Shown here piece by piece: positions 4,848 to 63,436 of a stretch of 64,000 nucleotides of DNA. Position numbers and translations under genes: made by a program. Source of the DNA: Ampullaceana balthica (taxonomy: Eukaryota; Mollusca; Gastropoda; Lymnaeidae). Location: positions 2,862,001 to 2,926,000 of the forward strand of contig CALYLW010000017.1 in the NCBI GenBank assembly GCA_944989445.1, given 5' to 3'. A model generated the notes under the pieces. That model searched no databases. It worked only from the letters and a program-made list of their open reading frames with translations, and was not told where the DNA came from. Numbering within the stretch: the stretch's first letter is position 1; the number at the start of each line of letters is the position of its first letter.

Positions 4848-7800
4848 TTAAATAATTTCTTGTAAAGTAAGATCTTGCTCTCTCTTTCCACCAACTAAGA
4901 CACTCCCTGCCAATTGAAGGATCTCTGAAAAGCTAAGATCTTGCTCTCTCTTTCCACCAGCTAAGACACTCCCTGCCAATTGAAGGATCTCTGATAAGCT
5001 AAGATCTTGCTCTCTCTTTCCACCAGCTAAGACACTCCCTGCCAATTGAAGGATCTCTGAAAAGCTAAGATCTTGCTCTCTCTTTCCACCAGCTAAGACA
5101 CTCCCTGCCAATTGAAGGATCTCTGATAAGCTAAGATCTTGCTCTCTCTTTCCACCAGCTAAGACACTCCCTGCCAATTGAAGGATCTCTGATAAGCTAA
5201 GATCTTGCTCTCTCTTTCCACCAGCTAAGACACTCCCTGCCAATTGAAGGATCTCTGATAAGCTAAGATCTTGCTCTCTCTTTCCACCAGCTAAGACACT
5301 CCCTGCCAATTGAAGGATCTCTGATAAGCTAAGATCTTGCTCTCTCTTTCCACCAGCTAAGACACTCCCTGCCAATTGAAGGATCTCTGATAAGCTAAGA
5401 TCTTGCTCTCTCTTTCCACCAGCTAAGACACCCCCTGCCAATTGAAGGATCTCTGATAAGCTAAGATCTTGCTCTCTCTTTCCACCAGCTAAGACACCCC
5501 CTGCCAATTGAAGGATCTCTAATAAGCTAAGATCTTGCTCTCTCTTTCCACCAGCTAAGACACTCCCTGCCAATTGAAGGATCTCTGATAAGCTAAGATC
5601 TTGATCTCTCTTTCCACCAGCTAAGACACTCCCTGCCAATTGAAGGATCTCCGATAAGCTAAGATCTTGCTCTCTCTTTCCACCAGCTAAGACACTCCCT
5701 GCCAATTGAAGGATCTCTGATAAGCTAAGATCTTGCTCTCTCTTTCCACCAGCTAAGACACTCCCTGCCAATTGAAGGATCTCTGATAAGCTAAGATCTT
5801 GCTCTCTCTTTCCACCAGCTAAGACACTCCCTGCCAATTGAAGGATCTCCGATAAGCTAAGATCTTGCTCTCTCTTTCCACCAGCTAAGACACTCCCTGC
5901 CAATTGAAGGATCTCTGATAAGCTAAGATCTTGCTCTCTCTTTCCACCAGCTAAGACACTCCCTGCCAATTGAAGGATCTCTGATAAGCTAAGATCTTGC
6001 TCTCTCTTTCCACCAGCTAAGACACCCCCTGCCAATTGAAGGATCTCTGATAAGCTAAGATCTTGCTCTCTCTTTCCACCAGCTAAGACACTCCCTGCCA
6101 ATTGAAGGATCTCTGATAAGCTAAGATCTTGCTCTCTCTTTCCACCAGCTAAGACACTCCCTGCCAATTGAAGGATCTCTGATAAGCTAAGATCTTGCTC
6201 TCTCTTTCCACCAGCTAAGACACTCCCTGCCAATTGAAGGATCTCCGATAAGCTAAGATCTTGCTCTCTCTTTCCACCAGCTAAGACACTCCCTGCCAAT
6301 TGAAGGATCTCTGATAAGCTAAGATCTTGCTCTCTCTTTCCACCAGCTAAGACACTCCCTGCCAATTGAAGGATCTCTGATAAGCTAAGATCTTGCTCTC
6401 TCTTTCCACCAGCTAAGACACCCCCTGCCAATTGAAGGATCTCTGATAAGCTAAGATCTTGCTCTCTCTTTCCACCAGCTAAGACACCCCCTGCCAATTG
6501 AAGGATCTCTAATAAGCTAAGATCTTGCTCTCTCTTTCCACCAGCTAAGACACTCCCTGCCAATTGAAGGATCTCTGATAAGCTAAGATCTTGATCTCTC
6601 TTTCCACCAGCTAAGACACTCCCTGCCAATTGAAGGATCTCCGATAAGCTAAGATCTTGCTCTCTCTTTCCACCAGCTAAGACACTCCCTGCCAATTGAA
6701 GGATCTCCGATAAGCTAAGATCTTGCTCTCTCTTTCCACCAGCTAAGACACTCCCTGCCAATTGAAGGATCTCTGATAAGCTAAGATCTTGCTCTCTCTT
6801 TCCACCAGCTAAGACACTCCCTGCCAATTGAAGGATCTCTGATAAGCTAAGATCTTGCTCTCTCTTTCCACCAGCTAAGACACTCCCTGCCAATTGAAGG
6901 ATCTCCGATAAGCTAAGATCTTGCTCTCTCTTTCCACCAGCTAAGACACTCCCTGCCAATTGAAGGATCTCTGATAAGCTAAGATCTTGCTCTCTCTTTC
7001 CACCAGCTAAGACACTCCCTGCCAATTGAAGGATCTCTGATAAGCTAAGATCTTGCTCTCTCTTTCCACCAGCTAAGACACCCCCTGCCAATTGAAGGAT
7101 CTCTGATAAGCTAAGATCTTGCTCTCTCTTTCCACCAGCTAAGACACTCCCTGCCAATTGAAGGATCTCTGATAAGCTAAGATCTTGCTCTCTCTTTCCA
7201 CCAGCTAAGACACTCCCTGCCAATTGAAGGATCTCTGATAAGCTAAGATCTTGCTCTCTCTTTCCACCAGCTAAGACACTCCCTGCCAATTGAAGGATCT
7301 CCGATAAGCTAAGATCTTGCTCTCTCTTTCCACCAGCTAAGACACTCCCTGCCAATTGAAGGATCTCTGATAAGCTAAGATCTTGCTCTCTCTTTCCACC
7401 AGCTAAGACACTCCCTGCCAATTGAAGGATCTCTGATAAGCTAAGATCTTGCTCTCTCTTTCCACCAGCTAAGACACTCCCTGCCAATTGAAGGATCTCT
7501 GATAAGCTAAGATCTTGCTCTCTCTTTCCACCAGCTAAGACACTCCCTGCCAATTGAAGGATCTCTGAAAAGCTAAGATCTTGCTCTCTCTTTCCACCAG
7601 CTAAGACACTCCCTGCCAATTGAAGGATCTCTGATAAGCTAAGATCTTGCTCTCTCTTTCCACCAGCTAAGACACTCCCTGCCAATTGAAGGATCTCTGA
7701 TAAGCTAAGATCTTGCTCTCTCTTTCCACCAGCTAAGACACTCCCTGCCAATTGAAGGATCTCTGATAAGCTAAGATCTTGCTCTCTCTTTCCACCAGCT

Positions 7801-8840
7801 AAGACACTCCCTGCCAATTGAAGGATCTCTGATAAGCTAAGATCTTGCTCTCTCTTTCCACCAGCTAAGACACCCCCTGCCAATTGAAGGATCTCTGATA
7901 AGCTAAGATCTTGCTCTCTCTTTCCACCAGCTAAGACACTCCCTGCCAATTGAAGGATCTCTGATAAGCTAAGATCTTGCTCTCTCTTTCCACCAGCTAA
8001 GACACCCCCTGCCAATTGAAGGATCTCTGATAAGCTAAGATCTTGCTCTCTCTTTCCACCAGCTAAGACACCCCCTGCCAATTGAAGGATCTCTGATAAG
8101 CTAAGATCTTGCTCTCTCTTTCCACCAGCTAAGACACTCCCTGCCAATTGAAGGATCTCTGATAAGCTAAGATCTTGCTCTCTCTTTCCACCAGCTAAGA
8201 CACCCCCTGCCAATTGAAGGATCTCTGATAAGCTAAGATCTTGCTCTCTCTTTCCACCAGCTAAGACACCCCCTGCCAATTGAAGGATCTCTGATAAGCT
8301 AAGATCTTGCTCTCTCTTTCCACCAGCTAAGACACTCCCTGCCAATTGAAGGATCTCTGATATGCTAAGATCTTGCTCTCTCTTTCCACCAGCTAAGACA
8401 CTCCCTGCCAATTGAAGGATCTCTGATAAGCTAAGATCTTGCTCTCTCTTTCCACCAGCTAAGACACTCCCTGCCAATTGAAGGATCTCTGATAAGCTAA
8501 GATCTTGCTCTCTCTTTCCACCAGCTAAGACACTCCCTGCCAATTGAAGGATCTCCGATAAGCTAAGATCTTGCTCTCTCTTTCCACCAGCTAAGACACT
8601 CCCTGCCAATTGAAGGATCTCTGATAAGCTAAGATCTTGCTCTCTCTTTCCACCAGCTAAGACACTCCCTGCCAATTGAAGGATCTCTGATAAGCTAAGA
8701 TCTTGCTCTCTCTTTCCACCAGCTAAGACACTCCCTGCCAATTGAAGGATCTCTGATAAGCTAAGATCTTGCTCTCTCTTTCCACCAGCTAAGACACTCC
8801 CTGCCAATTGAAGGATCTCTGATAAGCTAAGATCTTGATC
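4848..8840 (-). repeat. 66-bp coding tandem array of gene A
   Basis: About 60 units keep a perfect 66-bp period with no indels. Most units differ only at a few sites: CTC[T/C]GAT, ACAC[T/C]CCCTG and an occasional GAA for GAT. A rare marker (TTGATCTCTC instead of TTGCTCTCTC) occurs at 5601 and again at 6591, 990 bp or 15 units apart, with matching neighbours. This shows a 15-unit block duplication. The array grew by recent unequal exchange or conversion. Confidence 0.95.
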
Positions 8841-8900
8841 GCTCTTTGCAGCTGTGTCGACATCCCAATTTTTAACATCTTCAGGTTTTTGTTCAGGAAT
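4848..8900 (-). CDS. Gene A exon 2: secreted multi-copy peptide precursor (60 units)
   Basis: The exon encodes 1350 residues plus a stop. It opens after a good acceptor (pyrimidine-rich stretch ending CTACAG at 8901-8906) with a 20-residue acidic leader beginning IPEQKPEDVKNWD. Then come 60 units of exactly 22 residues (66 bp) and a final 10-residue partial unit. Each unit is E-QDLSLSEILQLAG-[SG]-VLAGG-KR. The KR dibasic sites suggest prohormone-convertase cleavage; removal of KR leaves a C-terminal Gly that could serve as amide donor. Rare variants are SFSEI, SISEI, SLLEI, LTLQEI, LVGG and KRD in place of KRE. The reported frame extends upstream to an ATG near 8966, but that part is intron. 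The true start is taken as exon 1 at 15026, which supplies a signal peptide in the same phase. The family is not recognised. A repetitive secreted structural protein is an alternative, but the regular G-KR favours peptide release. Confidence 0.85.
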   Translation of the reverse strand: MPEQKPEDVKNWDVDTAAKSDQDLSLSEILQLAGSVLAGGKREQDLSLSEILQLAGSVLAGGKREQDLSLSEILQLAGSVLAGGKREQDLSLSEILQLAGSVLAGGKREQDLSLSEILQLAGSVLAGGKREQDLSLSEILQLAGSVLAGGKREQDLSLSEILQLAGSVLAGGKREQDLSISEILQLAGSVLAGGKREQDLSLSEILQLAGGVLAGGKREQDLSLSEILQLAGGVLAGGKREQDLSLSEILQLAGSVLAGGKREQDLSLSEILQLAGGVLAGGKREQDLSLSEILQLAGGVLAGGKREQDLSLSEILQLAGSVLAGGKREQDLSLSEILQLAGGVLAGGKREQDLSLSEILQLAGSVLAGGKREQDLSLSEILQLAGSVLAGGKREQDLSLSEILQLAGSVLAGGKREQDLSLSEILQLAGSVLAGGKREQDLSFSEILQLAGSVLAGGKREQDLSLSEILQLAGSVLAGGKREQDLSLSEILQLAGSVLAGGKREQDLSLSEILQLAGSVLAGGKREQDLSLSEILQLAGSVLAGGKREQDLSLSEILQLAGSVLAGGKREQDLSLSEILQLAGSVLAGGKREQDLSLSEILQLAGGVLAGGKREQDLSLSEILQLAGSVLAGGKREQDLSLSEILQLAGSVLAGGKREQDLSLSEILQLAGSVLAGGKREQDLSLSEILQLAGSVLAGGKREQDLSLSEILQLAGSVLAGGKREQDLSLSEILQLAGSVLAGGKREQDLSLSEILQLAGSVLAGGKRDQDLSLSEILQLAGSVLAGGKREQDLSLLEILQLAGGVLAGGKREQDLSLSEILQLAGGVLAGGKREQDLSLSEILQLAGSVLAGGKREQDLSLSEILQLAGSVLAGGKREQDLSLSEILQLAGSVLAGGKREQDLSLSEILQLAGSVLAGGKREQDLSLSEILQLAGSVLAGGKREQDLSLSEILQLAGGVLAGGKREQDLSLSEILQLAGSVLAGGKREQDLSLSEILQLAGSVLAGGKREQDLSLSEILQLAGSVLAGGKREQDLSLSEILQLAGSVLAGGKREQDLSLSEILQLAGSVLAGGKREQDLSLSEILQLAGSVLAGGKRDQDLSLSEILQLAGSVLAGGKREQDLSLLEILQLAGGVLAGGKREQDLSLSEILQLAGGVLAGGKREQDLSLSEILQLAGSVLAGGKREQDLSLSEILQLAGSVLAGGKREQDLSLSEILQLAGSVLAGGKREQDLSLSEILQLAGSVLAGGKREQDLSLSEILQLAGSVLAGGKREQDLSFSEILQLAGSVLAGGKREQDLSLSEILQLAGSVLAGGKREQDLSFSEILQLAGSVLVGGKREQDLTLQEII

Positions 8901-8959
8901 CTGTAGGTCAATAAAAAAGATGCATGAAATTACCGCATATTTTTTTGTTATACACATTA

Positions 8960-9147
8960 CAGTCATACTTCTCTAAATCGAACTCAAAGGGACCCGAAAA
9001 AAAATCTACTTATGGAGTTGTCGAGTTAGGGAAAATGGCGTAATAGGTGCAGATTAACTTAATCAAGGAATTAGGCTGGGACCCAACAATTAATTCGATT
9101 TAGGAGGTTATCGACTTAGGGAAGTTCGACTTTGCGAGGTCCGACTG
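8960..9147 (-). mobile_element. pogo/Tigger-like MITE in the gene A intron
   Basis: This 188-bp element has terminal inverted repeats (CAGTCATACTTCTCTAAATC at the left, and GCGAGGTCCGACTG at the right). It is flanked by TA on both sides (8958-8959 and 9148-9149), the target preference of the Tc1/mariner-pogo group. It has no coding capacity. It sits 60 bp upstream of exon 2 of gene A. A longer relative lies at 25835-26998. Confidence 0.8.
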
Positions 9148-9526
9148 TATTTTCTACGTTCATCATTCATCACCTATAAAATGTATTCATATGTTTTATT
9201 TATTTAGTCATTTGTTATTTGTCGGGTGTTTCAAGCAAATAGGAATCCTACTTTGAAAATGAAAGTAACTCTCTGATTTTTTTTTACAAATACCATATTA
9301 AATACTTGAAATGCTTAAGCGCTCGTGTTAGAGAACAAAGAAACTCCCAGAGGAAATTTAGAATAAATAATATATTATAAATTAACTACATGTCATCCAT
9401 AATAGAGTATTTATACATTGTACATTTAAAGGCAAGAACGATTTGGATCAACTGATACTTCTTTTTACGAATCGCCTGAAATGCTATTATATATATATAT
9501 GCCAATAATTATTTGTTAAGTATGTA

Positions 9527-9778
9527 TGTGTATACGGGTTCGAATCCGTGTGAAGGCAAGGGTTTGTTCCCGGGGCCTAGGGCGTCCCTGAGTCACCCCG
9601 CTCCGAATGGGTACCTAACACTACATGTAGTTAGGCGGCTGGGTAATGCGTGGAACCCACAAAGCCGTGGCCTGTGAATGCTGCATCACTTGCCAACAGA
9701 TCATCTGTCATGATCTGTGGACGCAACTATCTTCTGCATAGAAGGAGCGTCTGTATTGATAAGATAAGATAAGATATA
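9527..9778 (+). mobile_element. tRNA-type SINE with (ATAAG)n tail
   Basis: The element begins near a Pol III B-box-like GGGTTCGAATCC and then a conserved body (GAATGGGTACCTAACAC … GGCGGCTGGGTAATGCG). It ends with ATAGAAGGAGCGTCTGT followed by (GATAA)n. The A box is not clear, so the head may be truncated. A second, inverted and shorter copy is at 56414-56555. Its last ~45 bp match the 3' end of the LINE at 24021-25485. Confidence 0.75.
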
Positions 9779-10602
9779 AGTTTAGCCTTCTGGATATAAT
9801 ATATTAAAATTTTGTGCTGAGCTAACTCTTGAGAATACAACTTTCAGTTGGTCAGAAATATACATATGAAAAATGAAATTATCTAATTCTAAGACCATTT
9901 TACGTAATATAAAGAGCTCTAAGAAACTAAACAAACAATTTAATAGGGCATTCCTTTAATTTAAATTCCTGCATACAAACATTTCTCTTAGGTATAGATC
10001 CAACGTAGCGAAGGATTGCATTCGGAAAAAAACATGTTGTCTTTAATTCGCCGATAGAACTTACAGGAAGAAAGTCCAATAAATCAACAACAACAACAAA
10101 AAAAAACAAAAAAAAACATCATGATTAGTTTGATAATTTTTTTGTTCCCTTTTGTCCTCTTCACCATAACAGTCCTATTTACTGATGGATACTCATATCT
10201 AATATGTTGCTGTTTTAATAAAGGATGCAATTCTTTGATTATTTACGTTTTCCGATCAGACATTATATTTTGTAAATTATATCATTTAGCCGATTTTTTT
10301 TATATCCCCGTCCTCTTTTCTTCAAGTTTTTGTTTCTTGAAATTATATAAATTATTTGCCAAGTATATTTAAGATTGATCATCTATTCGCTTAAAACATA
10401 TGTGAAATATAAATATACATTAAAAATATTTTAAGTGATATACTGTGGAAATCTATGCCTAAGTCACGCATATAACTGACTTTTGCTATCGCTTTCCACA
10501 TTATATTCACTCACTAATTATGTTACTATTTTTTTTAAAAAAATTAAAATTTGACTTATTATGAACAACATATCACAATAATTGTCAATTTCATTAACCT
10601 CA

Positions 10603-10945
10603 TGTTAAAAAATAAATACCATAGATCGTGTGACAAATGTAATGAAATAGTTTTAACCCATCTATAATATAAAGAAAGTATTCGTATAAAAGGTCACTGC
10701 TTTGTACCGCAAGGCCAAACTAAGCACGAATGTTATTATAATAAAATTACACAGCTCAATTTAAGAGGCGCACACGAAAATATCCGCAATTTGACAATAT
10801 AAGATTTTTGAAAACGCACCGCTCAAAATAAAGTATTGGAAAAAAATACCGCACCAAAATAGACTCGTTTTGAATGTCCGTATGAACCTGTTCAATATGG
10901 AATTGGGATTTAATACTCCTCTCTTTGTGTCAACATTTTCTGATG
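10603..10945 (+). repeat. Dispersed direct repeat, copy 2
   Basis: This is the partner of 736-1080. It lies in the gene A intron and is non-coding. Confidence 0.75.
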
Positions 10946-12159
10946 TTTTAATTGATGGCTTTCGGACAAAGGGACAATTACAAAAAATATACGTAAACCA
11001 TCTGCAGGTTAAAAGGAACCGTCCTGCTAAATTTGGTCCCCGTCCGTCACTTGGTTTTTCCGTGATTGTGGAGCTACAGTCGAAAAGTGAAACATAAAAA
11101 TTTACAAACATACAAAGATACAAACATCAACTGAGCTTTATATATTAGAATATGTATCTACTAGTTCATGCTGCGGCGCCGTGGCGCCTGCGGCGCCCCC
11201 TTTTTTAAAGGGTGCCTACGGCGCCCACCTTTTTCAAAAGCATAACTAACTTGTCCCTTTATAATAAATACGTAATATTAAAATTTCTTAAATGTACACA
11301 GAGTATTTTATAAAAGTTTTAAATGTCAAAAGCCCAAGTAACTTATCCTTGTATGATAAATACGAAATATTACTGAAAATTAAACAAAGCATTTATATAA
11401 TAATTTTAACAGTGCTAATCACCACACGATTTTTAAACTAATTTTAGAAAGCAGCGCACCAAATTACTGCACCAAAAAATAAATATTTGAGTCAATCAGT
11501 ACTGCTTACAACACAAAATTTTCAAAAAGCAGAGTGATGTCCCTCAGCGTTAGGTATCAGCGATAAATGAGCGTAAATATATAATATACTAGCGTACACC
11601 CGTCAAAAATGTCGGAAGTTTTCAGCTGAAATCTATTTATTTTATTTAAAAATGCACTTTTTTAGGGTGCCTACGGCGCCGAACTTTTTCAAAAGCCCAA
11701 CTAACTTGTCCTTGTTTGATAAATACGAAATATTAAACTTTCTGAAATGTACACAGATCCTACCCCGAAGGAATAAAATATAAATTAACATAATATATAT
11801 AAATAAATATATTCCCATGGCCATGGTGCCCCTATGCTCGTTTGCCCCCGGGCAAATGCCCAACGGGCCTATGCGTTAAGGCGGCCCTGGTTGTAGGGCG
11901 CCTACGGCGCCCCCTTTGTTTTTTGATTTTATAATTAACCATCATCAAATCCTCTTTTTACATTGATCCCTTTTCGAAAATTAAAATATGAGCGAAAACA
12001 ATTAAGTCATATAATATTTTTTTACAGCACATCTTTAATTTGCACACCTTTTGATGCATTGGTGCAGTAATTTGGTTTTCCCTGCTTTCTAAAATTAGTA
12101 GCGTCAGGACAGACTGACTGACTTGCGTGACAATTGCAAATTATATAGTTTTCTATACT

Positions 12160-13345
12160 AATAAAAGGCAAAGCCCTGACTGACTGACTCATCCCTAATT
12201 CTCCAACTTTCCGTGTCGGTAGAAGCATGAAACTTTGGGAAGTTGTTGAGTACACTCTCACGGCGATAATTGACGAAAAAGAATTTTAAAATTCCCATTC
12301 ATGGGGGCCGGGGGCCCAAATGTAGTTTTTTCCTTATATGAGTTATATAAAAATGATTCATCACTATTTCTCAAATTTCCCGTATAGATAAAAGCATATA
12401 ACTTAGGTAAGTTGTTGAGTACACTCCCACGATGGTAACAGGTGAAAAAATATTTAAACTATTACTTCCCGGGGTGTCGGGGCCAAAATGTAATTTTTTC
12501 CTTATATGAGCTATATAAAAAAACGACTAATCACTATTTCTCCAACTCCCCGTGTAGGTAGAAGCATGAAACTTTTGGAAGTTGTTGAGTAGCCTTTCGC
12601 GACGATTAGGCGTAAAAGAATGTCAAAATTCACACTCAAGGAGCTGGGGGCCCAAAAACGTTTTTCCCCTAATATGGACTATATAAAATATGAAAATCAC
12701 TAATTCTCCTAATTTCCGAGTAGGCAGAAGCATGAAACTCTGGAAAGTTGTTGAGTATAATCCCGCATTGGTAACAGGCGAACAAATATTTAAATTATCA
12801 CTTCCTGGGGGCCGGGGCCCAAATGAAGTTTTTTTTCCCTAATATGAGCTATATACAAACTGAAAACCACTAATTCTCCAACTTCCCGTGTAGGTAGAAG
12901 CATGAAACTTTGGGCGTGGATAGTTGCTGAGTAGACTTCCGCGATAGTAACAGGGGAAAACAATATTTAAATCATCATTTACTGGGGGCCGGGGGCCCAA
13001 ATGTAGAATATTTATTATATTAAAAACGGACATCACTAATTCTCCAATTTTCCGTGTAGGTAAAAGCATGAAACTTTGAGGAGTTGTTGAGCACACCCTC
13101 CCGACGATAACTGGCGAAAAAGAATTTTAAAATTCCGACTCATGGGTGGCCGGGGGCCTAAATGAAGTTTTTTCCTTATATGAGCTTTATAAAAACTGAA
13201 AATCACTCATTCTCCAACTTCCCATGTAGGTAGAAGCATGAAACATTGGGATGTTTTTGAGTACACTCCCGCGATGGTAACATGCAAAAAAATATAATTA
13301 ATTATCACTCACTGGGGGCCTTGGGGCCCAAATTCAGCTTTTTCA
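12160..13345 (+). repeat. ~168-bp tandem repeat, about seven copies
   Basis: The motif GTAGAAGCATGAAACTTTGG recurs at about 12221, 12391, 12561, 12727, 12896, 13061 and 13231, a spacing of 166-170 bp. Each unit also holds GGGGGCC[GT]GGGGCCC and a TATGAGCTATATAAAA block. The first unit is preceded by TCTATACTAATAAAAGGCAA, which resembles a Helitron 5' end. There is no conserved open frame. The array is internal to the 11161-14893 element. Confidence 0.85.
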
Positions 13346-13844
13346 CCTTACATGAGTTAAATAAAAATTTGTTAAAACTTTGAATACTATGTAAATTGAT
13401 TTTGACAAAACATTGAATAAAAAGAAAACGTGATGGCCTATATTAAATAGGGCATTAAAATTTTTATTTTTCATTGTTTTCAAGCGGAGGGCCCCTCATC
13501 TCAATTTTGTAAGCGTTTAAGAAATTTTACCATTTGATTTCACACAATTTGTTTTCCAAATTTTGACAAACAAATATATTTATCATAAATCAGATTGAAA
13601 TAAAATGTTGTTTTGAACTTTACATCTAACACCAATAGGGCCCCGGGCCCTTATTTTAGTTTTTTAAGCCGTATAAATAGTATTTTATTCATCCCGTGGC
13701 CATTAAACTTTAAGAAGTACGCTCCCACGAAGATTTCTGTAATTAATTGTTTTAAAAACAACACTTATTAGGGGCCGGGCGGGGCCCGTAATGTCATTTT
13801 AAAACATGAGTTATATCAAAGGTATTTTAAACAGTGGCTACTTG

Positions 13845-13984
13845 CACTGGCGTAGCTAAGGCAGGGGGGGTCTAAAATCTAAATCCCCCTGGGCCCCTTT
13901 GAGGGAGCCCCAAAATTAGTGTCCCCAAAAGAGGTTAAGCCTCACGGGCCCTCAAACTCCTACAAATTCCTAGCTATGCCACTG
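13845..13984. mobile_element. hAT-type MITE
   Basis: The ends match in inverted orientation (CACTGGCGTAGCTAAGG and CCTAGCTATGCCACTG). The length is 140 bp with no coding. The terminal sequence is the CAGTGGCGTAGC type also seen at 28191. I could not find a matching 8-bp target duplication. Confidence 0.6.
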
Positions 13985-14951
13985 GTGTATAGATGAATTT
14001 TTGACCAAATTTGATATTTAAAAAAGTAAAATTCTATAGGATAATGAACTCCTAACGTCTGTTCCGTTGGGGCTGGGGCCAAAAATAAATTTTTCGTAAA
14101 CTTTTAAAGCTTCATTTCCGATTAGATTTTTAAACATTTAAATAAATATAGACACGTATCTCCATAATGACTCAGATTGAAATATTCAGGCCTTATGAGA
14201 TATGAACATCCTGCACCCATTTTTCCACAGGGAAGCTTAATGTAATTTTATTCCCAATTTGTTTTTACACGACCTCGACCAATATTGACAAACCAGTATA
14301 TCCATCATGATCCATATTGAAATCTATTGGTGTTTTGAATTGGGGTTACGCAGGTGCTCAACGCTAGCTGAAATCCTAATTTTCCGCTGCAAAGCGCGGG
14401 TATTAAGCTAGCATCATATAAATATTTACGCTCAATTATGTAGCCTAACGCTAAGGGACATCACTCTGCTTTTTTAAAAAAAATTGGATAATCATTTTGG
14501 TTTCCAGATTAACATTAAACACCCTCCACACTATTATTAATAATTAAACAATTTCATGCGGACGTTCGATAAGAGGTATTTTTGGTGCAGTAATTTGGTG
14601 CGCTGCTTTCTAAAATTACTTTAAAAATCGTGTGGTGATTAGCACTGTAAAAAAATATTATATACATAATTTGTGTACATTTCAGGAATATTTCGTATTT
14701 ATCATATAAGGATACGTTACTTAAGCTTTTGCAATACTATATTGTAAAATACTTTGTGTACATTTAAGAACGTTTAATATTACGTATTTATCATACAAGG
14801 ACAAGTTAGTTGGGCTTTTGAAAAAGGTGGGCGCCGTAGGCGCCCTTAAAAAGGGGGGCGCCGCAGGCGCCACGGCGCCGCAGCACAAACTAGTTATTAT
14901 ATATGAGAGATCAATTCAGACAATATAAATATGATGTTTACTCACATTCAC

Positions 14952-15026
14952 CCCGTTGATTGGATTCAGTGGCAATGCCGAGATAAAGCCCACGACGAGC
15001 AAGGCGACGAACGTTGATGCAATCAT
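14952..15026 (-). CDS. Gene A exon 1: signal peptide of the multi-copy peptide precursor
   Basis: The ATG at 15026 opens MIASTFVALLVVGFISALPL, a short hydrophobic N-terminus with a plausible cleavage site after ISA. The coding part ends at GGG (14952) before GTGAAT, or six bases later at AAT before the stronger donor GTGAGT (14946); both leave phase 0, matching exon 2 at 8900. The GGG end is chosen because the paralogous gene B ends its exon at the same GGG. A candidate acceptor (TTTAG) at 15044-15046 places only 17 nt of 5' UTR in this exon, implying an upstream untranslated exon that I could not locate. The joined protein would be about 1375 residues. Similarity to gene B exon 1 (15 of 20 residues, 63377-63436) is the strongest evidence. 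Confidence 0.8.
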
Positions 15027-15046
15027 CCTTGACTCTTGTACAGCTA

Positions 15047-24020: not shown

Positions 24021-25485
24021 CTTATCTTATCTTATCTGTTTACAGACGCTCCTTCTATACAGAAGATTATTGCGTCCTACGCTTATCTATGGTTTGTGTT
24101 TAGTCCTGCATTTTTATTAGAGATTTAAATGTTGATAAAGTGTTGGTTTTCCTGGATTCTTCAGGCAACCCATTCCACGCCCGAATTCCGGACGGGAAGA
24201 AGGAAAACTTGTATGTGTTTGTTCTTGCATACGGAATAAGAAAGGTGTTTTTATCCTTATGTCTATCTGAGGGTTGTATTAAGTTATCTTTGTGTTGTAT
24301 TTCTAAATTAGAATTAATTGCTTTATGTATGATTACTACTTTGCTCTTGGTTCTTCTATCCTCTAGTGTTTCAAGGTTTAATGATTTAACTAATGGTGTT
24401 ACTCTTGTCAGTTTCGAATATTCTCCAGTAATGAATCTTGCAGCTCTTTTTTGAATTTGTTCTAGTTTATCAATGTTTTCTTTGGTGGATGGGTCCCATA
24501 CAGAAGATGCATATTCTAGTGCAGGTCTCACCAAAGTGAGGTAGCATTTTAGTTTTATATCTCTATTACATTTGTTAAAGTTCCTTTTTATAAAGCCTAA
24601 GGTTTTGTTTGATTTTTTAATAACTTCATTGACATGGGGATTCCATGATAGTTTCTCATTTATTAAGACTCCTAAGTATTTTGCATCTTTAGTTTGGGTC
24701 AGTTCTTTTCCATGAATGTATTTTGAATTTATTTGTTTCTTTTTCTTTGTTACTCTTAACAGTTGACACTTTTCTGGATGGAAAGAGTTACTCCAGTTAG
24801 TTTCCCATTTTATCAATTCATCTAAGTCTTTTTGTAAAATTTTGCTATCTTGTTCTGATTTAATTGTTCTATAGATTATACAATCATCAGCAAATAGCCT
24901 AACTTTTGTACCTGTTGAGATGTTGTTGGGTAAATCATTTATATAAATTAAAAAGAGTAAGGGACCTAGCACAGTTCCTTGTGGAACTCCTGAGTTAACC
25001 TTTATTGGTGCAGATTTAGATCCATTAATTATTACAGTTTGCTCCCTGCCCAAAAGGAAGTCTTGGATCCAGTGATGTAAGGAACCTGAGATTCCAAAGT
25101 AGTTAAGTTTTTTAAGTAAACTAAGGTGGTGAACTTTGTCAAATGCTTTTGAGAAGTCTAGCAATATTGTATCTATTTGATCATTTTTGTCCAAGCCTTT
25201 TGATAGTTCATCTATTAAACCTATTAATTGTGTTTCACATGATCTGTTTTTTCTAAAGCCGTGTTGATGTGGGCATAGGGCATTATATTTGTCAAGGTGG
25301 TTAACTATTCTACTATATATTATGTGTTCTAGTAATTTACAGGTGATACTAGTAAGTGATACAGGCCTGTAATTACCAGGGTCTGATTTATCCCCTTTCT
25401 TAAAGAGTGGACTTACATTAGCTAATTTCCAATCCTGGGGCACTTTACCCTGGTTTAGAGAGGCTTGAAAGAGAACTACAAGGAT
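24021..25485 (-). mobile_element. CR1/Jockey-like LINE, 3' part with reverse transcriptase
   Basis: The minus-strand frame ends at 24100 and encodes about 460 residues, from ILVVLFQASLNQGKVPQDW through the RT core. Visible motifs are LFKKGD and NYRPVSL near the start, DFSKAFDKV (first catalytic Asp), GVPQGTVLGPLLFLIYIND, and the catalytic box FADD. Then come the thumb/C-terminal segments KYLGVLI, RPALEYASSVWDP and the RRTKSK stretch. The 3' UTR ends in (ATAAG)n at 24021. This part is intact with no internal stop. The missing upstream RT portion lies at 33841-33975, separated by a nested insertion. The endonuclease domain is absent, so it is 5'-truncated and dead. Confidence 0.9.
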
Positions 25486-50700: not shown

Positions 50701-53700
50701 GGCTGACTTTGGCCTACACTGATAAACTAGGCTAACTTTGGCCTACACTGATCAACTGAGCTGACTTTGGCCTACACTGATCAATTGGGCTGACTTTGGC
50801 CTACACTGATCAACTAGGCTGACTTTGGCCTACACTGATCAACTGAGCTGACTTTGGCCTACACTGATCAACTGAGCTGACTTTGGCCTACACTGATCAA
50901 TTGGGCTGACTTTGGCCTACACTGATCAACTAGGCTGACTTTGGCCTACACTGATCAACTAGGCTGACTTTGGCCTACACTGATCAACTGAGCTGACTTT
51001 GGCCTACACTGATCAACTAGGCTGACTTTGTCCTACACTGATCAACTGAGCTGACTTTGGCCTACACTGATCAACTAGGCTGACTTTGGCCTACACTGAT
51101 CAACTAGGCTGACTTTGGCCTACACTGATCAACTGAGCTGACTTTGGCCTACACTGATCAACTAGGCTGACTTTGGCCTACACTGATCAACTGAGCTGAC
51201 TTTGGCCTACACTGATCAACTGAGCTGACTTTGGCCTACACTGATCAACTGAGCTGACTTTGGCCTACACTGATCAACTAGGCTGACTTTGGCCTACACT
51301 GATCAACTGAGCTGACTTTGGCCTACACTGATCAACTAGGCTGACTTTGGCCTACACTGATCAACTAGGCTGACTTTGGCCTACACTGATCAACTAGGCT
51401 GACTTTGGCCAAGACTGATCACCTGAGCTGACTTTGGCCTACACTGATCAACTAGGCTGACTTTGGCCTACACTGATCAACTGAGCTGACTTTGGCCTAC
51501 ACTGATCAACTAGGCTGACTTTGGCCTACACTGATCAACTAGGCTGACTTTGGCCTACACTGATCAACTAGGCTGACTTTGGCCTAGACTGATCAACTAG
51601 GCTGACTTTGGCCTACACTGATCAACTGAGCTGACTTTGGCCTACACTGATCAACTAGGCTGACTTTGGCCTACACTGATAAACTAGGCTGACTTTGGCC
51701 TACACTGATCAACTGAGCTGACTTTGGCCTACATTGATCAATTGGGCTGACTTTGGCCTACACTGATCAACTAGGCTGACTTTGGCCTACACTGATCAAC
51801 TGAGCTGACTTTGGCCTACACTGATCAACTAGGCTGACTTTGGCCTACACTGATAAACTAGGCTGACTTTGGCCTACACTGATCAACTGAGCTGACTTTG
51901 GCCTACACTGATCAATTGGGCTGACTTTGGCCTACACTGATCAACTAGGCTGACTTTGGCCTACACTGATCAACTGAGCTGACTTTGGCCTACACTGATC
52001 AACTGAGCTGACTTTGGCCTACACTGATCAACTGAGCTGACTTTGGCCTACACTGATCAACTGAGCTGACTTTGGCCTACACTGATCAACTGAGCTGACT
52101 TTGGCCTACACTGATCAACTAGGCTGACTTTGGCCTACACTGATCAACTAGGCTGACTTTGGCCTACACTGATCAACTAGGCTGACTTTGGCCTAGACTG
52201 ATCACCTGAGCTGACTTTGGCCTACACTGATCAACTAGGCTGACTTTGGCCTACACTGATCAACTGAGCTGACTTTGGCCTACACTGATCAACTAGGCTG
52301 ACTTTGGCCTACACTGATCAACTAGGCTGACTTTGGCCTACACTGATCAACTAGGCTGACTTTGGCCTACACTGATCAACTAGGCTGACTTTGGCCTAGA
52401 CTGATCAACTAGGCTGACTTTGGCCTACACTGATCAACTAGGCTGACTTTGGCCTACACTGATCAACTAGGCTGACTTTGGCCTACACTGATCAACTAGG
52501 CTGACTTTGGCCTAGACTGATCACCTGAGCTGACTTTGGCCTACACTGATCAACTAGGCTGACTTTGGCCTACACTGATCAACTGAGCTGACTTTGGCCT
52601 ACACTGATCAACTAGGCTGACTTTGGCCTACACTGATCAACTAGGCTGACTTTGGCCTACACTGATCAACTAGGCTGACTTTGGCCTACACTGATCAACT
52701 AGGCTGACTTTGGCCTAGACTGATCAACTAGGCTGACTTTGGCCTACACTGATCAACTGAGCTGACTTTGGCCTACACTGATCAACTAGGCTGACTTTGG
52801 CCTACACTGATAAACTAGGCTGACTTTGGCCTACACTGATCAACTGAGCTGACTTTGGCCTACACTGATCAATTGGGCTGACTTTGGCCTACACTGATCA
52901 ACTAGGCTGACTTTGGCCTACACTGATCAACTGAGCTGACTTTGGCCTACACTGATCAACTAGGCTGACTTTGGCCTACACTGATCAACTAGGCTGACTT
53001 TGGCCTACACTGATCAACTGAGCTGACTTTGGCCTACACTGATCAATTGGGCTGACTTTGGCCTACACTGATCAACTAGGCTGACTTTGGCCTACACTGA
53101 TCAACTGAGCTGACTTTGGCCTACACTGATCAACTGAGCTGACTTTGGCCTACACTGATCAACTGAGCTGACTTTGGCCTACACTGATCAACTAGGCTGA
53201 CTTTGGCCTACACTGATCAACTGAGCTGACTTTGGCCTACACTGATCAACTAGGCTGACTTTGGCCTACACTGATCAACTAGGCTGACTTTGGCCTACAC
53301 TGATCAACTAGGCTGACTTTGGCCTAGACTGATCACCTGAGCTGACTTTGGCCTACACTGATCAACTAGGCTGACTTTGGCCTACACTGATCAACTGAGC
53401 TGACTTTGGCCTACACTGATCAACTAGGCTGACTTTGGCCTACACTGATCAACTAGGCTGACTTTGGCCTAGACTGATCAACTAGGCTGACTTTGGCCTA
53501 CACTGATCAACTGAGCTGACTTTGGCCTACACTGATCAACTAGGCTGACTTTGGCCTACACTGATAAACTAGGCTGACTTTGGCCTACACTGATCAACTG
53601 AGCTGACTTTGGCCTACACTGATCAATTGGGCTGACTTTGGCCTACACTGATCAACTAGGCTGACTTTGGCCTACACTGATCAACTGAGCTGACTTTGGC

Positions 53701-56345
53701 CTACACTGATCAACTAGGCTGACTTTGGCCTACACTGATCAATTGGGCTGACTTTGGCCTACACTGATCAACTAGGCTGACTTTGGCCTACACTGATCAA
53801 CTAGGCTGACTTTGGCCTACACTGATCAACTGAGCTGACTTTGGCCTACACTGATCAACTAGGCTGACTTTGGCCTACACTGATCAACTAGGCTGACTTT
53901 GGCCTAGACTGATCAACTAGGCTGACTTTGGCCTACACTGATCAACTGAGCTGACTTTGGCCTACACTGATCAACTAGGCTGACTTTGGCCTACACTGAT
54001 AAACTAGGCTGACATTGGCCTACACTGATCAACTAAGCTGACTTTGGCCTACACTGATCAATTGGGCTGACTTTGGCCTACACTGATCAACTAGGCTGAC
54101 TTTGGCCTACACTGATCACTTGAGCTGACTTTGGCCTACACTGATCAACTGAGCTGACTTTGGCCTACACTGATCAATTGGGCTGACTTTGGCCTACACT
54201 GATCAACTAGGCTGACTTTGGCCTACACTGATCAACTAGGCTGACTTTGGCCTACACTGATCAACTGAGCTGACTTTGGCCTACACTGATCAACTAGGCT
54301 GACTTTGGCCTACACTGATCAACTGAGCTGACTTTGGCCTACACTGATCAACTAGGCTGACTTTGGCCTACACTGATCAACTAGGCTGACTTTGGCCTAC
54401 ACTGATCAACTGAGTTGACTTTGGCCTACACTGATCAACTAGGGTGACTTTGGCCTACACTGATCAACTGAGCTGACTTTGGCCTACACTGATCAACTGA
54501 GCTGACTTTGGCCTACACTGATCAACTGAGCTGACTTTGGCCTACACTGATCAACTAGGCTGACTTTGGCCTACACTGATCAACTGAGCTGACTTTGGCC
54601 TACACTGATCAACTAGGCTGAATTTGGCCTACACTGATCAACTAGGCTGACTTTGGCCTACACTGATCAACTAGGCTGACTTTGGCCTAGACTGATCACC
54701 TGAGCTGACTTTGGCCTACACTGATCAACTAGGCTGACTTTGGCCTACACTGATCAACTGAGCTGACTTTGGCCTACACTGATCAACTAGGCTGACTTTG
54801 GCAAACACTGATCAACTAGGCTGACTTTGGCCTACACTGATCAACTAGGCTGATTTTGGCCTAGACTGATCAACTAGGCTGACTTTGGCCTACACTGATC
54901 AACTGAGCTGACTTTGGCCTACACTGATCAACTAGGCTGACTTTGGCCTACACTGATAAACTAGGCTGACTTTGGCCTACACTGATCAACTGAGCTGACT
55001 TTGGCCTACACTGATCAATTGGGCTGACTTTGGCCTACACTGATCAACTAGGCTGACTTTGGCCTACACTGATCAACTGAGCTGACTTTGGCCTACACTG
55101 ATCAACTAGGCTGACTTTGGCCTACACTGATCAACTGAGCTGACTTTGGCCTACACTGATCAATTGGGCTGACTTTGGCCTACACTGATCAACTAGGCTG
55201 ACTTTGGCCTACACTGATCAACTAGGCTGACTTTGGCCTACACTGATCAACTAGGCTGACTTTGGCCTACACTGATCAACTGAGCTGACTTTGGCCTACG
55301 ATGATCAACTGAGCTGACTTTGGCCTACACTGATCAATTGGGCTGACTTTGGCCTACACTGATCAACTAGGCTGACTTTGGCCTACACTGATCAACTGAG
55401 CTGACTTTGGCCTACACTGATCAACTGAGCTGACTTTGGCCTACACTGATCAACTGAGCTGACTTTGGCCTACACTGATCAACTAGGCTGACTTTGGCCT
55501 ACACTGATCAACTGAGCTGACTTTGGCCTACACTGATCAACTAGGCTGACTTTGGCCTACACTGATCAACTGAGCTGATTTTGGCCTACACTGATCAACT
55601 AGGCTGACTTTGGCCTACACTGATCAACTAGGCTGACTTTGGCCTACACTGATCAACTGAGCTGACTTTGGCCTACACTGATCAACTAGGCTGACTTTGG
55701 CCTACACTGATCAACTGAGCTGACTTTGGCCTACACTGATCAACTAGGCTGACTTTGGCCTACACTGATCAACTGGGCTGACTTTGGCCTACACTGATCA
55801 ACTGAGCTGACTTTGGCCTACACTGATCAACTAGGCTGACTTTGGCCTACACTGATCAACTGAGCTGACTTTGGCCTACACTGATAAACTAGGCTGACTT
55901 TGGCCTACACTGATCAACTGAGCTGACTTTGGCCTACACTGATCAATTGAGCTGACTTTGGCCTACACTGATCAACTAGGCTGACTTTGGCCTACACTGA
56001 TCAACTAGGCTGACTTTGGCCTACACTGATCAACTAGGCTGACTTTGGCCTACACTGATCAACTGAGCTGACTTTGGCCTACACTGATCAACTAGGCTGA
56101 CTTTGGCCTACACTGATCAACTAGGCTGACTTTGGCCTACACTGATCAACTGAGCTGACTTTGGCCTACACTGATCAATTGGGCTGACTTTGGCCTACAC
56201 TGATCAACTAGGCTGACTTTGGCCTACACTGATCAACTGAGCTGACTTTGGCCTACACTGATCAACTAGGCTGACTTTGGCCTACACTGATCAACTGAGC
56301 TGACTTTGGCCTACACTGATCAACTGAGCTGACTTTGGCCTACAC
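41727..56345 (+). repeat. 29-bp satellite, about 503 monomers
   Basis: The monomer is ACTGATCAACT[AG][AG]GCTG-ACTTTGGCCTAC. From ACTG at 41757 to the last unit at 56344 is 14587 bp, exactly 503 periods of 29. The main variants are TAGG, TGAG and TGGG after the TCAAC block. Rarer markers are GATAAAC, AATTGGG, CTAGACTGATCACC and TTGTCCTA. Both strands carry stops in every frame, so it is not coding. The first monomers at the left edge are the most diverged. Confidence 0.97.
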
Positions 56346-56929: not shown

Positions 56930-57990
56930 GATTAAATTTTATGTGCCGCTTATTTTCTAAAATGGGATCTTTTCTCTGTCCAGTGTATTCCAAAATTCCT
57001 CTGATATTAATAATTTCAGCAAAATATCATTTTAAGGTCCAACCTTTCTAACTCTAGTTCTTCTGTCTTAACTTTAACAAAATCTGCAATACATGTGGCC
57101 ATTTCCATTACATTTATTTGGCAAGTAAAAGGATTGATACAGAAGGACACAATTGGCTCCATACGTCAAAACTGCAAAAATCTCTCTTTTTAACACTTCA
57201 AGATGCTTCATAAATTATTACCCGTTTAATTCTTTGTTATCGAACATTTTCTTCGTATGTGGGAAATGCACGAGAGAATTGATCTGCAGATGTGATATCA
57301 ACAAATCCAATTGAGCTTTAAATGACTTTACAGAGTTTATCATTTCATCTATGTTGTTGTCTTTCCCCTTGCAACTCCAAATTAAAAGAATTCAATTTTT
57401 CCGTGATGTCTGTGAGAAATCCCAAATCAATGAGCCAGCGAGATTCAGATAGTTCATCATAATTTTCCTTTTTATCGTTTATAAATGTTTTTATTTCTTC
57501 AATTAAACTCAAAAATCTTGTAAGAACCTTTCCTTTACTGAGCCAACGTACTAAAGTATGCAGATAAGATTATGTTCTTTATCTTCAGAATCTTCTAACA
57601 GGGCCTTGAAAAGTCGGTGTTACAAAAGAGCTGCGCGAATAGAATTGATAATTTTTGTAACTATTTTCATAACGTGTTCAAATGGCAATATTTTACAACA
57701 CAGAGCTTCCTGGTGGATAATACAGTGGTAGGACATAAAGTTAGAAAATGATTCATCCTTCTTGCAGAGGGCAATAAATCCTTTGTTTTTACCTACCATT
57801 GCTGGTGCCCCATCGGTGGTTATCGCAGACAGCTTGTGCAAAGGTATATTTATTGACTTGGCGTATTTTCTGAATGTATTATAAATATCCTCATCCCTTG
57901 TCTGGCCTTTCATAGGTAATATTTGCAACATATCCTCTTTTACTGTGAAGTTACTAAATAACATTTTCACCATAACTTCTAACTGTTGAC
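56930..57990 (-). pseudogene. Decayed hAT transposase (ZBED5/GTF2IRD2-like)
   Basis: The minus strand from 57973 reads TDEDIYNTF-like sequence, LSAITTDGAPAMVGKNKGFI, and FMSYHCIIHQEALCCKILP. This is the TTDGAPAM-x-G … C-x-x-H block diagnostic of this hAT lineage. After a stop near 57620 the homology continues in other frames with RLFKALLEDSEDKEHNL, TLVRWLSKGKVLTRFLSL and SRWLIDLGFLTDITEKLN. It is broken and inactive. Confidence 0.8.
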
Positions 57991-58099
57991 TCCTAATTCG
58001 TTTTTCGTTAGATGAAGATGTTTCCTAGCTAACTGTCGCAGCAATCGCAATCACAGTGAGAACAACGTGGTTCCAGGCGTGGAATGCTATTTGCACATA

Positions 58100-60016: not shown

Positions 60017-60111
60017 CCCTTTTTTCCACGTACATGCTATTCTGGCTCTTATGAGAAATAGTGAACGCTGTCAAGAAAAGCTAGGACAGCTTCTACTAAA
60101 TGTATATCTTA

Positions 60112-62550
60112 TTAGGCAACTTCTCTCTTACCGGCGCCCTCTAGTAGAGCCAGGAGAGTTTCTACGAGATTTATATCTTGTTGGGCAACTTCTCTCTTAC
60201 CGGCACCTCCAAGTAGAGCCAGGAGAGTTTCAACGAGATTTATATCTAGTTGGGCAACTTCTCTCTTTCCAACGCCTCCAAGTAGAGCCAGGAGAGTATC
60301 CACGAGATTTATATCTTGTTGGGTAACTTCTCTCTTTCCACCGCCTCCAAGTAGAGCCAGGAGAGTTTCCACGAGATTTATATCTTGTTGGGTAACTTCT
60401 CTCTTTCCACCGCCTCCAAGAAGAGCCAGGAGAGTTTCCACGAGATTTATATCTTGTTGGGTAACTTCTCTCTTTCCGCCGCCTCCAAGTAGAGCCAGGA
60501 GAGTTTCCACGAGATTTATATCTTGTTGGGCAACTTCTCTCTTTCCACCGCCTCCAAGTAGAGCCAGGAGAGTTTCAACGAGATTTATATCTTGTTGGGC
60601 AACTTCTCTCTTACCGGCACCTCCAAGTAGAGCCAGGAGAGTTTCTACGAGATTTATATCTTGTTGGGCAACTTCTCTCTTTCCAACGCCTCCAAGTAGA
60701 GCCAGGAGAGTTTCCACGAGATTTATATCTTGTTGGGCAACTTCTCTCTTTCCGCCACCTCCAAGTAGAGCCAGGAGAGTTTCAACGAGATTTATATCTT
60801 GTTGGGTAACTTCTCTCTTTCCACCGCCTCCAAGTAGAGCCAGGAGAGTTTCAACGAGATTTATATCTTGTTGGGAAACTTCTCTCTTACCGGCACCTCC
60901 AAGTAGAGCCAGGAGAGTTTCTACGAGATTTATATCTTGTTGGGCAACTTCTCTCTTACCGGCAGCTCCAAGTAGAGCCAGGAGAGTTTCCACAAGATTT
61001 ATATCTTGTTGGGCAACTTCTCTCTTTCCGCCACCTCCAAGTAGAGCCAGGAGAGTTTCTACGAGATTTATATCTTGTTGGGCAACTTCTCTCTTTCCAC
61101 CGCCTCCAAGTAGAGCCAGGAGAGTTTCCACGAGATTTATATCTTGTTGGGTAACTTCTCTCTTTCCGCCACCTCCAAGTAGAGCCAGGAGAGTTTCAAC
61201 GAGATTTATATCTTGTTGGGTAACTTCTCTCTTTCCACCGCCTCCAAGTAGAGCCAGGAGTGTTTCAACGAGATTTATATCTTGTTGGGTAACTTCTCTC
61301 TTTCCGCCACCTCCAAGTAGAGCCAGGAGAGTTTCAACGAGATTTATATCTTGTTGGGTAACTTCTCTCTTTCCACCGCCTCCAAGTAGAGCCAGGAGTG
61401 TTTCAACGAGATTTATATCTTGTTGGGTAACTTCTCTCTTTCCGCCACCTCCAAGTAGAGCCAGGAGAGTTTCAACGAGATTTATATCTTGTTGGGTAAC
61501 TTCTCTCTTTCCACCGCCTCCAAGTAGAGCCAGGAGTGTTTCAACGAGATTTATATCTTGTTGGGCAACTTCTCTCTTACCGGCACCTCCAAGTAGAGCC
61601 AGGAGAGTTTCAACGAGATTTATATCTTGTTGGGTAACTTCTCTCTTTCCACCGCCTCCAAGTAGAGCCAGGAGAGTTTCAACGAGATTTATATCTTGTT
61701 GGGCAACTTCTCTCTTACCGGCAGCTCCAAGTAGAGCCAGGAGAGTTTCTACGAGATTTATATCTTGTTGGGCAACTTCTCTCTTACCGGCACCTCCAAG
61801 TAGAGCCAGGAGTGTTTCAACGAGATTTATATCTTGTTGGGTAACTTCTCTCTTTCCACCGCCTCCAAGTAGAGCCAGGAGAGTTTCAACGAGATTTATA
61901 TCTTGTTGGGAAACTTCTCTCTTACCGGCACCTCCAAGTAGAGCCAGGAGAGTTTCTACGAGATTTATATCTTGTTGGGCAACTTCTCTCTTACCGTCAC
62001 CTCCAAGTAGAGCCAGGAGAGTTTCTGCGAGATTTATATCTTGTTGGGCAACTTCTCTCTTACCGGCACCTCCAAGTAGAGCCAGGAGAGTTTCCACGAG
62101 ATTTATATCTTGTTGGGCAACTTCTCTCTTACCGGCACCTCCAAGTAGAGCCAGGAGAGTTTCTACGAGATTTATATCTTGTTGGGCAACTTCTCTCTTA
62201 CCGGCAGCTCCAAGTAGAGCCAGGAGAGTTTCCACGAGATTTATATCTTGTTGGGCAACTTCTCTCTTTCCGCCACCTCCAAGTAGAGCCAGGAGAGTTT
62301 CTACGAGATTTATATCTTGTTGGGCAACTTCTCTCTTTCCACCGCCTCCAAGTAGAGCCAGGAGAGTTTCCACGAGATTTATATCTTGTTGGGTAACTTC
62401 TCTCTTTCCGCCACCTCCAAGTAGAGCCAGGAGAGTTTCAACGAGATTTATATCTTGTTGGGTAACTTCTCTCTTTCCACCGCCTCCAAGTAGAGCCAGG
62501 AGTGTTTCAACGAGATTTATATCTTGTTGGGAAACTTCTCTTTGTCCCTC
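60112..62550 (-). repeat. 69-bp coding tandem array of gene B
   Basis: 35 units keep an unbroken 69-bp register. Synonymous and replacement variants are more numerous than in gene A (TTTC[CAT]ACGAG, CC[AG]CC[GA]CCTCC, GGAG[AT]GTTTC). A dimeric 138-bp pattern repeats at about 61150-61560. A block around 60961-61200 recurs at 62203-62440, an offset of 1242 bp or 18 units. Confidence 0.95.
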
Positions 62551-62631
62551 CAGGTGGCTGATGAGACCAAATAGGTCATTGATGAAAGCAGTGTTATCCA
62601 AGTTGATTTCTTTTAGAAGTTCATTCTGAGC
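60112..62631 (-). CDS. Gene B exon 2: secreted multi-copy peptide precursor (35 units)
   Basis: The exon encodes 839 residues plus a TAA stop. It starts after acceptor CCCTCAG (62632-62638) with AQNELLKEINLDNTAFINDL and ends its 31-residue leader in EGQR. Then come 35 units of exactly 23 residues (69 bp) and a terminal EVA. The unit is EV-[ATS]-QQDINLVETLLALLGG-[GAVD]-GKR. KR sites with a preceding Gly predict convertase cleavage and amidation of the preceding residue. The TTG at 62643 is not a start; the frame there is intron, and the protein starts in exon 1 at 63436. The last part of the leader may be a diverged founder unit. Gene B is a paralogue of gene A by signal peptide, intron phase and unit core. 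The family is not recognised. Confidence 0.85.
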   Translation of the reverse strand, partial: AQNELLKEINLDNTAFINDLFGLISHLEGQREVSQQDINLVETLLALLGGGGKREVTQQDINLVETLLALLGGGGKREVTQQDINLVETLLALLGGGGKREVAQQDINLVETLLALLGGGGKREVAQQDINLVETLLALLGAAGKREVAQQDINLVETLLALLGGAGKREVAQQDINLVETLLALLGGAGKREVAQQDINLAETLLALLGGDGKREVAQQDINLVETLLALLGGAGKREVSQQDINLVETLLALLGGGGKREVTQQDINLVETLLALLGGAGKREVAQQDINLVETLLALLGAAGKREVAQQDINLVETLLALLGGGGKREVTQQDINLVETLLALLGGAGKREVAQQDINLVETLLALLGGGGKREVTQQDINLVETLLALLGGGGKREVTQQDINLVETLLALLGGGGKREVTQQDINLVETLLALLGGGGKREVTQQDINLVETLLALLGGGGKREVTQQDINLVETLLALLGGGGKREVTQQDINLVETLLALLGGGGKREVAQQDINLVETLLALLGGGGKREVAQQDINLVETLLALLGAAGKREVAQQDINLVETLLALLGGAGKREVSQQDINLVETLLALLGGGGKREVTQQDINLVETLLALLGGGGKREVAQQDINLVETLLALLGGVGKREVAQQDINLVETLLALLGGAGKREVAQQDINLVETLLALLGGGGKREVAQQDINLVETLLALLGGGGKREVTQQDINLVETLLALLGGGGKREVTQQDINLVETLLALLGGGGKREVTQQDINLVDTLLALLGGVGKREVAQLDINLVETLLALLGGAGKREVAQQDINLVETLLALLEGAGKREVA

Positions 62632-63364
62632 CTGAGGGTTCAAATGCGAAAAAGATTGATATTTTACATTTACCTAAAGTCGTATAGTTGTTTGTGTGTG
62701 TGTTTTTTTTTCTTCTTCTTTTTATCTTTACGTAATTATTTTTACATGATATAAACTATCTTTTATTATGTAAATATAATTTTAATATTTGTGTCAGTTC
62801 TATGTGCTGACGAAGACATTTGTCGAAATGTTTACTTTCGTATTATTCAATAATTATTAATAAAGCTCTAATTTATTGTTTTGATGACGACATTTGTTTG
62901 AGTATCTTGCACTTTATTTAAGATCTATCACAGTTCTCTTCTGTCTATATAATTCGTGTTGTGGGGTGAACCCGGATTGGTTATTGGTTATAAATGTAAA
63001 GCAACTGAGATTTAAGTCAGTTGTTACACAGACCATGAGCATGGTGTCTAGATTTGCAGTATTGTTTCACAGTTGTACTATTACTTAATCGGAAACATGA
63101 AGTTGAATTCTACATCGAGTAGAGCTCTAAATAGTGGGATTTTGTTCAATGACACCGAGGTGCGTTATTGTTTACAGTCCTAACAGTACCGCATAAAAAA
63201 TATTAAAAAAGAAATTTGAAAACTTAAAGACGATGAGATTTTCATTCATTCACAGACCCAGATCTAAAGTTAGAGGGGCAATTTTCTAGCTGTTGCGAGG
63301 GCTTTGAACAAACCGCAACTGCTATCAACCACGCAAAATACAGGGACATCACTCTTATACTGAC

Positions 63365-63436
63365 CCCAATTTGAACAAGTGGCAATGCCGAGATGGAGCC
63401 CACGATGAGCAAGATGAGGAATGTTGGTGCAATCAT
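63365..63436 (-). CDS. Gene B exon 1: signal peptide of the multi-copy peptide precursor
   Basis: The ATG at 63436 opens MIAPTFLILLIVGSISALPL, a signal peptide with a likely cut after ISA, and continues VQIG to the donor GGG|GTCAGT at 63364. Phase 0 matches exon 2 at 62631, giving a protein of about 863 residues across a 733-bp intron. A longer upstream frame adds MHFDFSITTTPK, but a good acceptor (GATTTCAG at 63456) lies inside it, so that extension is intronic. The exon then has 19 nt of 5' UTR, mirroring gene A. The donor GTCAGT is weaker than consensus. Confidence 0.85.

Follow-up and report, generated by a model that had tools for sequence, protein, structure and literature searches.

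What do two very long exons, each made up almost entirely of near-identical short peptide units, encode in the genome of the gastropod Ampullaceana balthica? The question arises from a stretch of 64,000 nucleotides (assembly GCA_944989445.1, contig CALYLW010000017.1, positions 2,862,001 to 2,926,000), hereafter the window, which is C17:2862001-2926000 in the genome that we searched and in which two minus-strand genes, here called A and B, were proposed by a first-pass annotation. We consider it probable, at about 0.72, that these genes belong to a snail family encoding secreted multi-copy prepropeptides; this is a model of the genes and of the processing of their products, in which splicing, secretion, cleavage and amidation are predicted from sequence. 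The family reading is adopted because the same elements recur at four loci: signal exons that are related to one another, a phase-0 boundary and an array of units ending in Gly-Lys-Arg (G-K-R). The proposal of two paralogous secreted precursors, with amidation-ready units separated by Lys-Arg (KR), is still the best reading, and is strengthened by two further paralogues, genes C and D.

The two arrays, the two signal exons and their GT-AG boundaries are all present in the sequence where they had been placed (Table 1), and splitting the spliced models at KR yields the same 60 (A) and 35 (B) complete units ending in G-K-R as had been counted. Tandem Repeats Finder places the array of gene A at 4868-8847 (60.3 copies, 66 bp) and that of gene B at 60103-62541 (35.3 copies, 69 bp), the units having mean pairwise DNA identities of 98.7% and 94.0%, respectively. 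The minus-strand frame of gene A is open at 4848-8972 (1374 codons) and that of gene B at 60112-62673 (853 codons); the acceptors are ctacag^ATT at 8901/8900 and ccctcag^GCT at 62632/62631, and the stops lie at 4848 and 60112. Counted by eye, the signal peptides of A and B have 15 of 20 residues in common; the pieces of 5' untranslated region (UTR) fall within the ~17-19 nt given before. The splice junction suggested for gene A, 14952^8900, does have a GT-AG boundary, but it is uncertain because a second phase-0 donor, AAT^gtgagt, lies 6 nt downstream of GGG^gtgaat and seems nearer to the consensus; the GGG^GT donor is at the position homologous to the donors of genes C and D. As a poly(A) signal, gene B has only ATTAAA and no AATAAA, while AATAAA follows the stop after 69 nt in A and after 1 nt in D and, by eye, overlaps the stop in C.

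Table 1. Features of genes A and B in the window (positions counted from the first letter of the window)
Feature	Positions	Strand	Description
Gene A, 5' UTR piece	15027..15043	-	17 nt, from sequence; putative, candidate acceptor AG at 15044-15045
Gene A, signal exon	14952..15026	-	MIASTFVALLVVGFISALPLNPING; ATG at 15026; phase-0 donor GGG^gtgaat
Gene A, predicted intron	8901..14951	-	6051 nt; contains direct and inverted repeats
Gene A, array exon	4848..8900	-	20-aa leader, 60 complete 22-aa units, eroded last unit, stop
Gene A, unit array	4881..8840	-	60 x 66 bp; consensus EQDLSLSEILQLAGSVLAG-G-KR
Gene A, candidate poly(A) signal	4773..4778	-	AATAAA, beyond the stop
Gene B, 5' UTR piece	63437..63455	-	19 nt; putative, after a candidate acceptor
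Gene B, signal exon	63365..63436	-	MIAPTFLILLIVGSISALPLVQIG; ATG at 63436; phase-0 donor GGG^gtcagt
Gene B, predicted intron	62632..63364	-	733 nt; from sequence
Gene B, array exon	60112..62631	-	31-aa leader, 35 complete 23-aa units, eroded last unit, stop
Gene B, unit array	60124..62538	-	35 x 69 bp; consensus EV[AT]QQDINLVETLLALLGGG-G-KR

The locus had been regarded as a duplicated pair of genes, and while the paralogy is supported, the family is larger, with at least four detectable genes rather than two. A search of the genome (1.097 Gb in 3363 contigs) with gene B revealed further arrays on contigs C2321 and C3080; such counts are lower bounds, and more divergent members could escape. 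In gene C (L009) the leader TQITEKT precedes 23 complete units, the commonest being ELTQQD followed by IS or IT and VSDALAALIAALSGKR (6 each among 22 free units); the signal exon of this gene, MISTVFLASLVLGTISGFLIPIG^gtgagt, is situated 2235 nt upstream. Gene D (L010) has the same leader and 22 complete units, mostly ELTQQDNTVTDALAALIGALTGKR, and its probable signal exon, MIGTVFFASLVLGTISGSPLIPIG^gtgagt, is found on another contig, C2567. Since ~5.5 kb at the end of C2567 match the start of C3080 at 97.3%, gene D is most likely a single locus divided between two overlapping contigs, with an intron of ~14.6 kb that harbours a reverse-transcriptase frame. Both genes follow the plan of A and B, namely a signal exon, a phase-0 intron and a single array exon. 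Outside the arrays, aligned segments of C and D are 87-97% identical (92% around the signal exon), as expected after a segmental duplication. Their being alleles was judged unlikely on account of the introns (2.2 versus ~14.6 kb), five residue differences in the unit consensus and a third overlapping sequence that is 97% identical to gene D. An invented consensus unit used as a query recovered C, D, B and A, plus one more locus with internal stops, whereas the signal of gene C alone found only C and D, and that of gene B alone only B and A. Weaker genome matches were dropped, those on C15, C1121 and C1823 as other repeats after inspection of their sequences, and those on C1025 and C496 for the stops in each listed match.

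Kinship among the four genes shows in the signal exons, which are hydrophobic and signal-like as judged by eye, and whose peptides are related in 6/6 pairs, with z scores of 5.0-9.5 over shuffles (8.2 for A-B). Between A and B, 56/72 bases of exon 1 are kept, while aligning the flanks takes heavy gapping (229 gap places). Unit spacing is constant in 136/136 steps across the four arrays, which shows that none was skipped when the units were located via the GKR motif, and G-K-R ends all 140 of the 140 complete units. QD....[DE], part of the N-terminal half, is conserved in all four consensus units, and the predicted peptides of B, C and D have acidic residues at positions 1, 6 and 11, those of A at 1, 3 and 8. 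The residues preceding the donor Gly are LAG, GGG/GAG, ALS and ALT, with no common C-terminal motif; among the 35 units of gene B the residue before this Gly is G in 20, A in 12, V in 2 and D in 1, the Gly itself being invariant.

Units ending in Gly-KR are laid out for cleavage by a convertase, trimming by a carboxypeptidase and amidation directed by the Gly, which suggests how the products of such genes would be made. Each gene would comprise a signal exon, an intron directly after it and one exon consisting nearly entirely of the tandem array (60, 35, 23 and 22 units). After removal of the signal peptide, a convertase of the furin or PC type would cut after each Lys-Arg, a carboxypeptidase would trim the two basic residues, and an amidating monooxygenase would act on the exposed Gly. 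Each precursor would thus release dozens of acidic amidated peptides of 19-21 residues, predicted to be EQDLSLSEILQLAGSVLAG-NH2, EV[AT]QQDINLVETLLALLGGG-NH2, ELTQQDISVSDALAALIAALS-NH2 and ELTQQDNTVTDALAALIGALT-NH2. Unequal exchange is proposed to add and homogenise units, thereby raising the peptide dose; the repeated segments seen by eye in the unit order of arrays A and C, together with the eroded terminal units, are as expected from such exchange.

A number of observations weigh against this reading, and have to be set beside two accounts that deny the release of peptides. The unit of gene A is weakly related to the others, with p values of 0.010 for A-B, 0.042 for A-C and 0.17 for A-D, so that A's membership of the family rests mainly on its signal exon and gene plan. 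No KR precedes the first unit (..AAKS in A, ..EGQR in B, ..TEKT in C and D), and the first peptide would therefore be longer or cut differently. The four terminal pieces are degenerate and have no GKR, that of gene D ending in Gly-Lys-stop. Helical amphipathicity does not exceed that of shuffles (p 0.11-0.45), and hence a strong amphipathic helix was rejected as an argument for antimicrobial peptides; for a polar-to-hydrophobic gradient, only C (0.041) and D (0.008) do better than shuffles, and A (0.076) and B (0.092) do not. AlphaFold2, run on gene B without an alignment, gives approximately one helix per unit at low confidence (predicted local distance difference test, pLDDT, 53). This helix, together with the constant unit length, would suit an uncut structural repeat protein, such as a secreted fibre or mucus protein of helical repeats in which the KR steps stay intact. 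We regard such a protein as improbable, given that Gly stands before KR in every complete unit despite differing neighbours and with no evident structural need, and that even the last piece of gene D retains Gly-Lys before its stop.

The other account, that the arrays are non-coding minisatellites open in one frame by chance, draws on the fact that openness alone is weak coding evidence, because open minisatellites are common in this genome: others are open over ~280-655 codons, and one near genes C and D (L041 from 3760; L047 from 5774), taken as a negative control, has several frames open over such lengths. One antisense frame is likewise open in array B and in array C, and gene A alone has no synonymous excess (1 synonymous and 6 nonsynonymous of 7 variants), which is a further point against the peptide model. 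However, with the four arrays pooled, 33 of the 68 distinct site variants relative to the array consensus are synonymous, 35 are nonsynonymous and 0 create stops, as against an expected synonymous fraction of 26-30%; the excess has p values of 5e-5 to 1.2e-3, depending on the assumed transition bias, and these are optimistic because the units within one array share history. All four arrays, moreover, are preceded by related signal exons that agree in phase and boundary, and coding is further supported by the unchanging unit length and by the AATAAA at or just past the stops of A, C and D. Chance openness is therefore given only a very slight probability, the lowest of all the alternatives, and the secreted multi-copy prepropeptide is retained.

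What such peptides might do is a different matter, and here a neuropeptide or hormone role contests only the functional part of the explanation. The genes and their processing would be the same, with storage in neurosecretory cells and action on a receptor, and with the copies raising output; we put this at about one chance in three. Passages of PMC6425005 give such precursors a signal peptide, cleavage at basic sites and amidation, and put FCAP at 6-28 copies in molluscan precursors; passages of PMC5996578 report a scallop with 24 FMRFamides and 21 FCAPs, and those of PMC6402141 report 19 copies for a box jellyfish RFamide. According to these passages, the FCAP and FMRFamide precursors resemble A-D in carrying many copies of a peptide in tandem, flanked by basic sites, and their signal peptide and amidation correspond to features predicted for A-D, but A-D differ from them in their acidic 19-21-residue peptides, the absence of spacers, the lack of a common C-terminal motif and their 22-60 units, and the 60 copies of gene A exceed the precursor numbers given in the passages of PMC6425005 and PMC5996578. 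The preserved QD....[DE] counts in favour of this role, but the array exon frames of A and B match no Pfam neuropeptide family, and the arrays hold neither spacers nor a second peptide type. In addition, the C-terminal residues, by which amidated neuropeptides usually bind their receptors, differ among the paralogues and vary within array B. In favour of the gene and processing model, the genome also carries an egg-laying hormone type precursor on contig C605 (L064, L065), matched by the egg-laying-hormone profile at an expectation value (E) of 1.1e-61, with two weaker neighbouring matches. It contains the pieces RLRFN, RLRAS and RLRFH, which are known from the Lymnaea precursor of caudodorsal cell hormone, and had 0 matches among solved structures. 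Like A-D, this precursor has basic cleavage sites and GKR amidation sites, but it differs from them in its mixture of peptides and spacers and in having no long identical array.

Because the C-terminus is not conserved, we lean slightly towards an exocrine role for the multi-copy prepropeptides, namely bulk secretion by a gland or into mucus of a defensive, surface-active or chemical-signal peptide, a tentative suggestion whose chances we set a little below even; the lack of spacers and the high copy number also favour it. A layout of this kind is found in fungal Kex2-processed repeat proteins (KEPs), defined as fungal secreted proteins with at least 3 units of at least 8 aa between KR, KK, RK or RR. 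Passages of PMC7329392 and the abstract of PMC9769878 describe them as a signal peptide followed by near-identical units between KR-type sites, and include Rep1 of Ustilago maydis, whose products are termed water-repellents. The repeat layout fits A-D, but with fungi on one side and a mollusc on the other, the comparison may serve as a mechanistic analogy only. It might further be supposed that in such an exocrine system tandem amplification within one exon sets the dose, and that each array, kept uniform by homogenisation, is free to drift towards a peptide of its own, by analogy with defence, venom or pheromone systems that evolve rapidly; we find this extension rather unlikely. It would gain only weak support from genes C and D, whose arrays are 84-86% identical versus 87-97% for their other aligned segments, as the 9/72 bases that differ between their unit consensuses are not above the most diverged flank segment.

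The view that the peptides match no named family still holds for Pfam, for the candidates scored in the homologue searches and for peptide strings in the open-licence literature. A Pfam scan of the gene A array exon frame gave no match, and six matches of gene B, having 0 matched stretches each, were dropped as summed repeat noise. No homologue was found for gene B (380 aa, E up to 0.001) or gene C (350 aa, E up to 10) among the 8000 candidates sharing most words with each, drawn from a database of ~5.8 billion proteins, some of them animal, in which relatives may lie outside the candidates scored. Matches in the PDB of a C unit pair (best E 1.9) and an A unit pair (best E 0.27) were taken as chance. 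None of six peptide strings (6-10 residues) occurs in 5.39 million open-licence papers, text searches by titles and the starts of abstracts, for which subscription literature was mostly out of scope, brought up no such peptide family, and viral contigs contained no relative.

Between genes A and B lies a satellite of 14.6 kb (41725-56345), whose basic unit is 29 bp by eye and for which Tandem Repeats Finder gives periods of 58 and 87 (252 and 168 copies). A retroelement reverse transcriptase frame at 24100-25506 on the minus strand matches RVT_1 (E 6.3e-39). A homologue search with a retroelement frame had unnamed environmental proteins as its best hits, with Pinctada and a Strongylocentrotus protein among the named ones, and pointed to no taxon. 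A transposase-like piece, recognised by eye, at 57620-58024 on the minus strand had no Pfam match, and scanning the window for Rfam families and tRNAs gave 0 matches. Elsewhere in the genome, the molluscan haemocyanin profile had 35 matches, mostly clustered on C193 and C677, where the exon clusters are possibly haplotypes or a duplicate. These matches mark the genome as that of a mollusc, and the egg-laying hormone type precursor points to a probable gastropod, perhaps a pulmonate; haemocyanin set against solved structures indicated no class. A COX1 profile had no match on the genome contigs, and no mitochondrial contig was seen.

The multi-copy secreted prepropeptide is a well-known kind of precursor, within which we file genes A-D as a new, unnamed family. 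Relatives may be overlooked, because long coding repeats are easily split or masked in assemblies, as with gene D on its two contigs. If the peptides are made, they would constitute an unnamed mollusc family whose precursors hold up to 60 copies each, and the family, if the reading is true, would show unequal exchange both tuning the dose of a secreted peptide and letting that peptide diverge.

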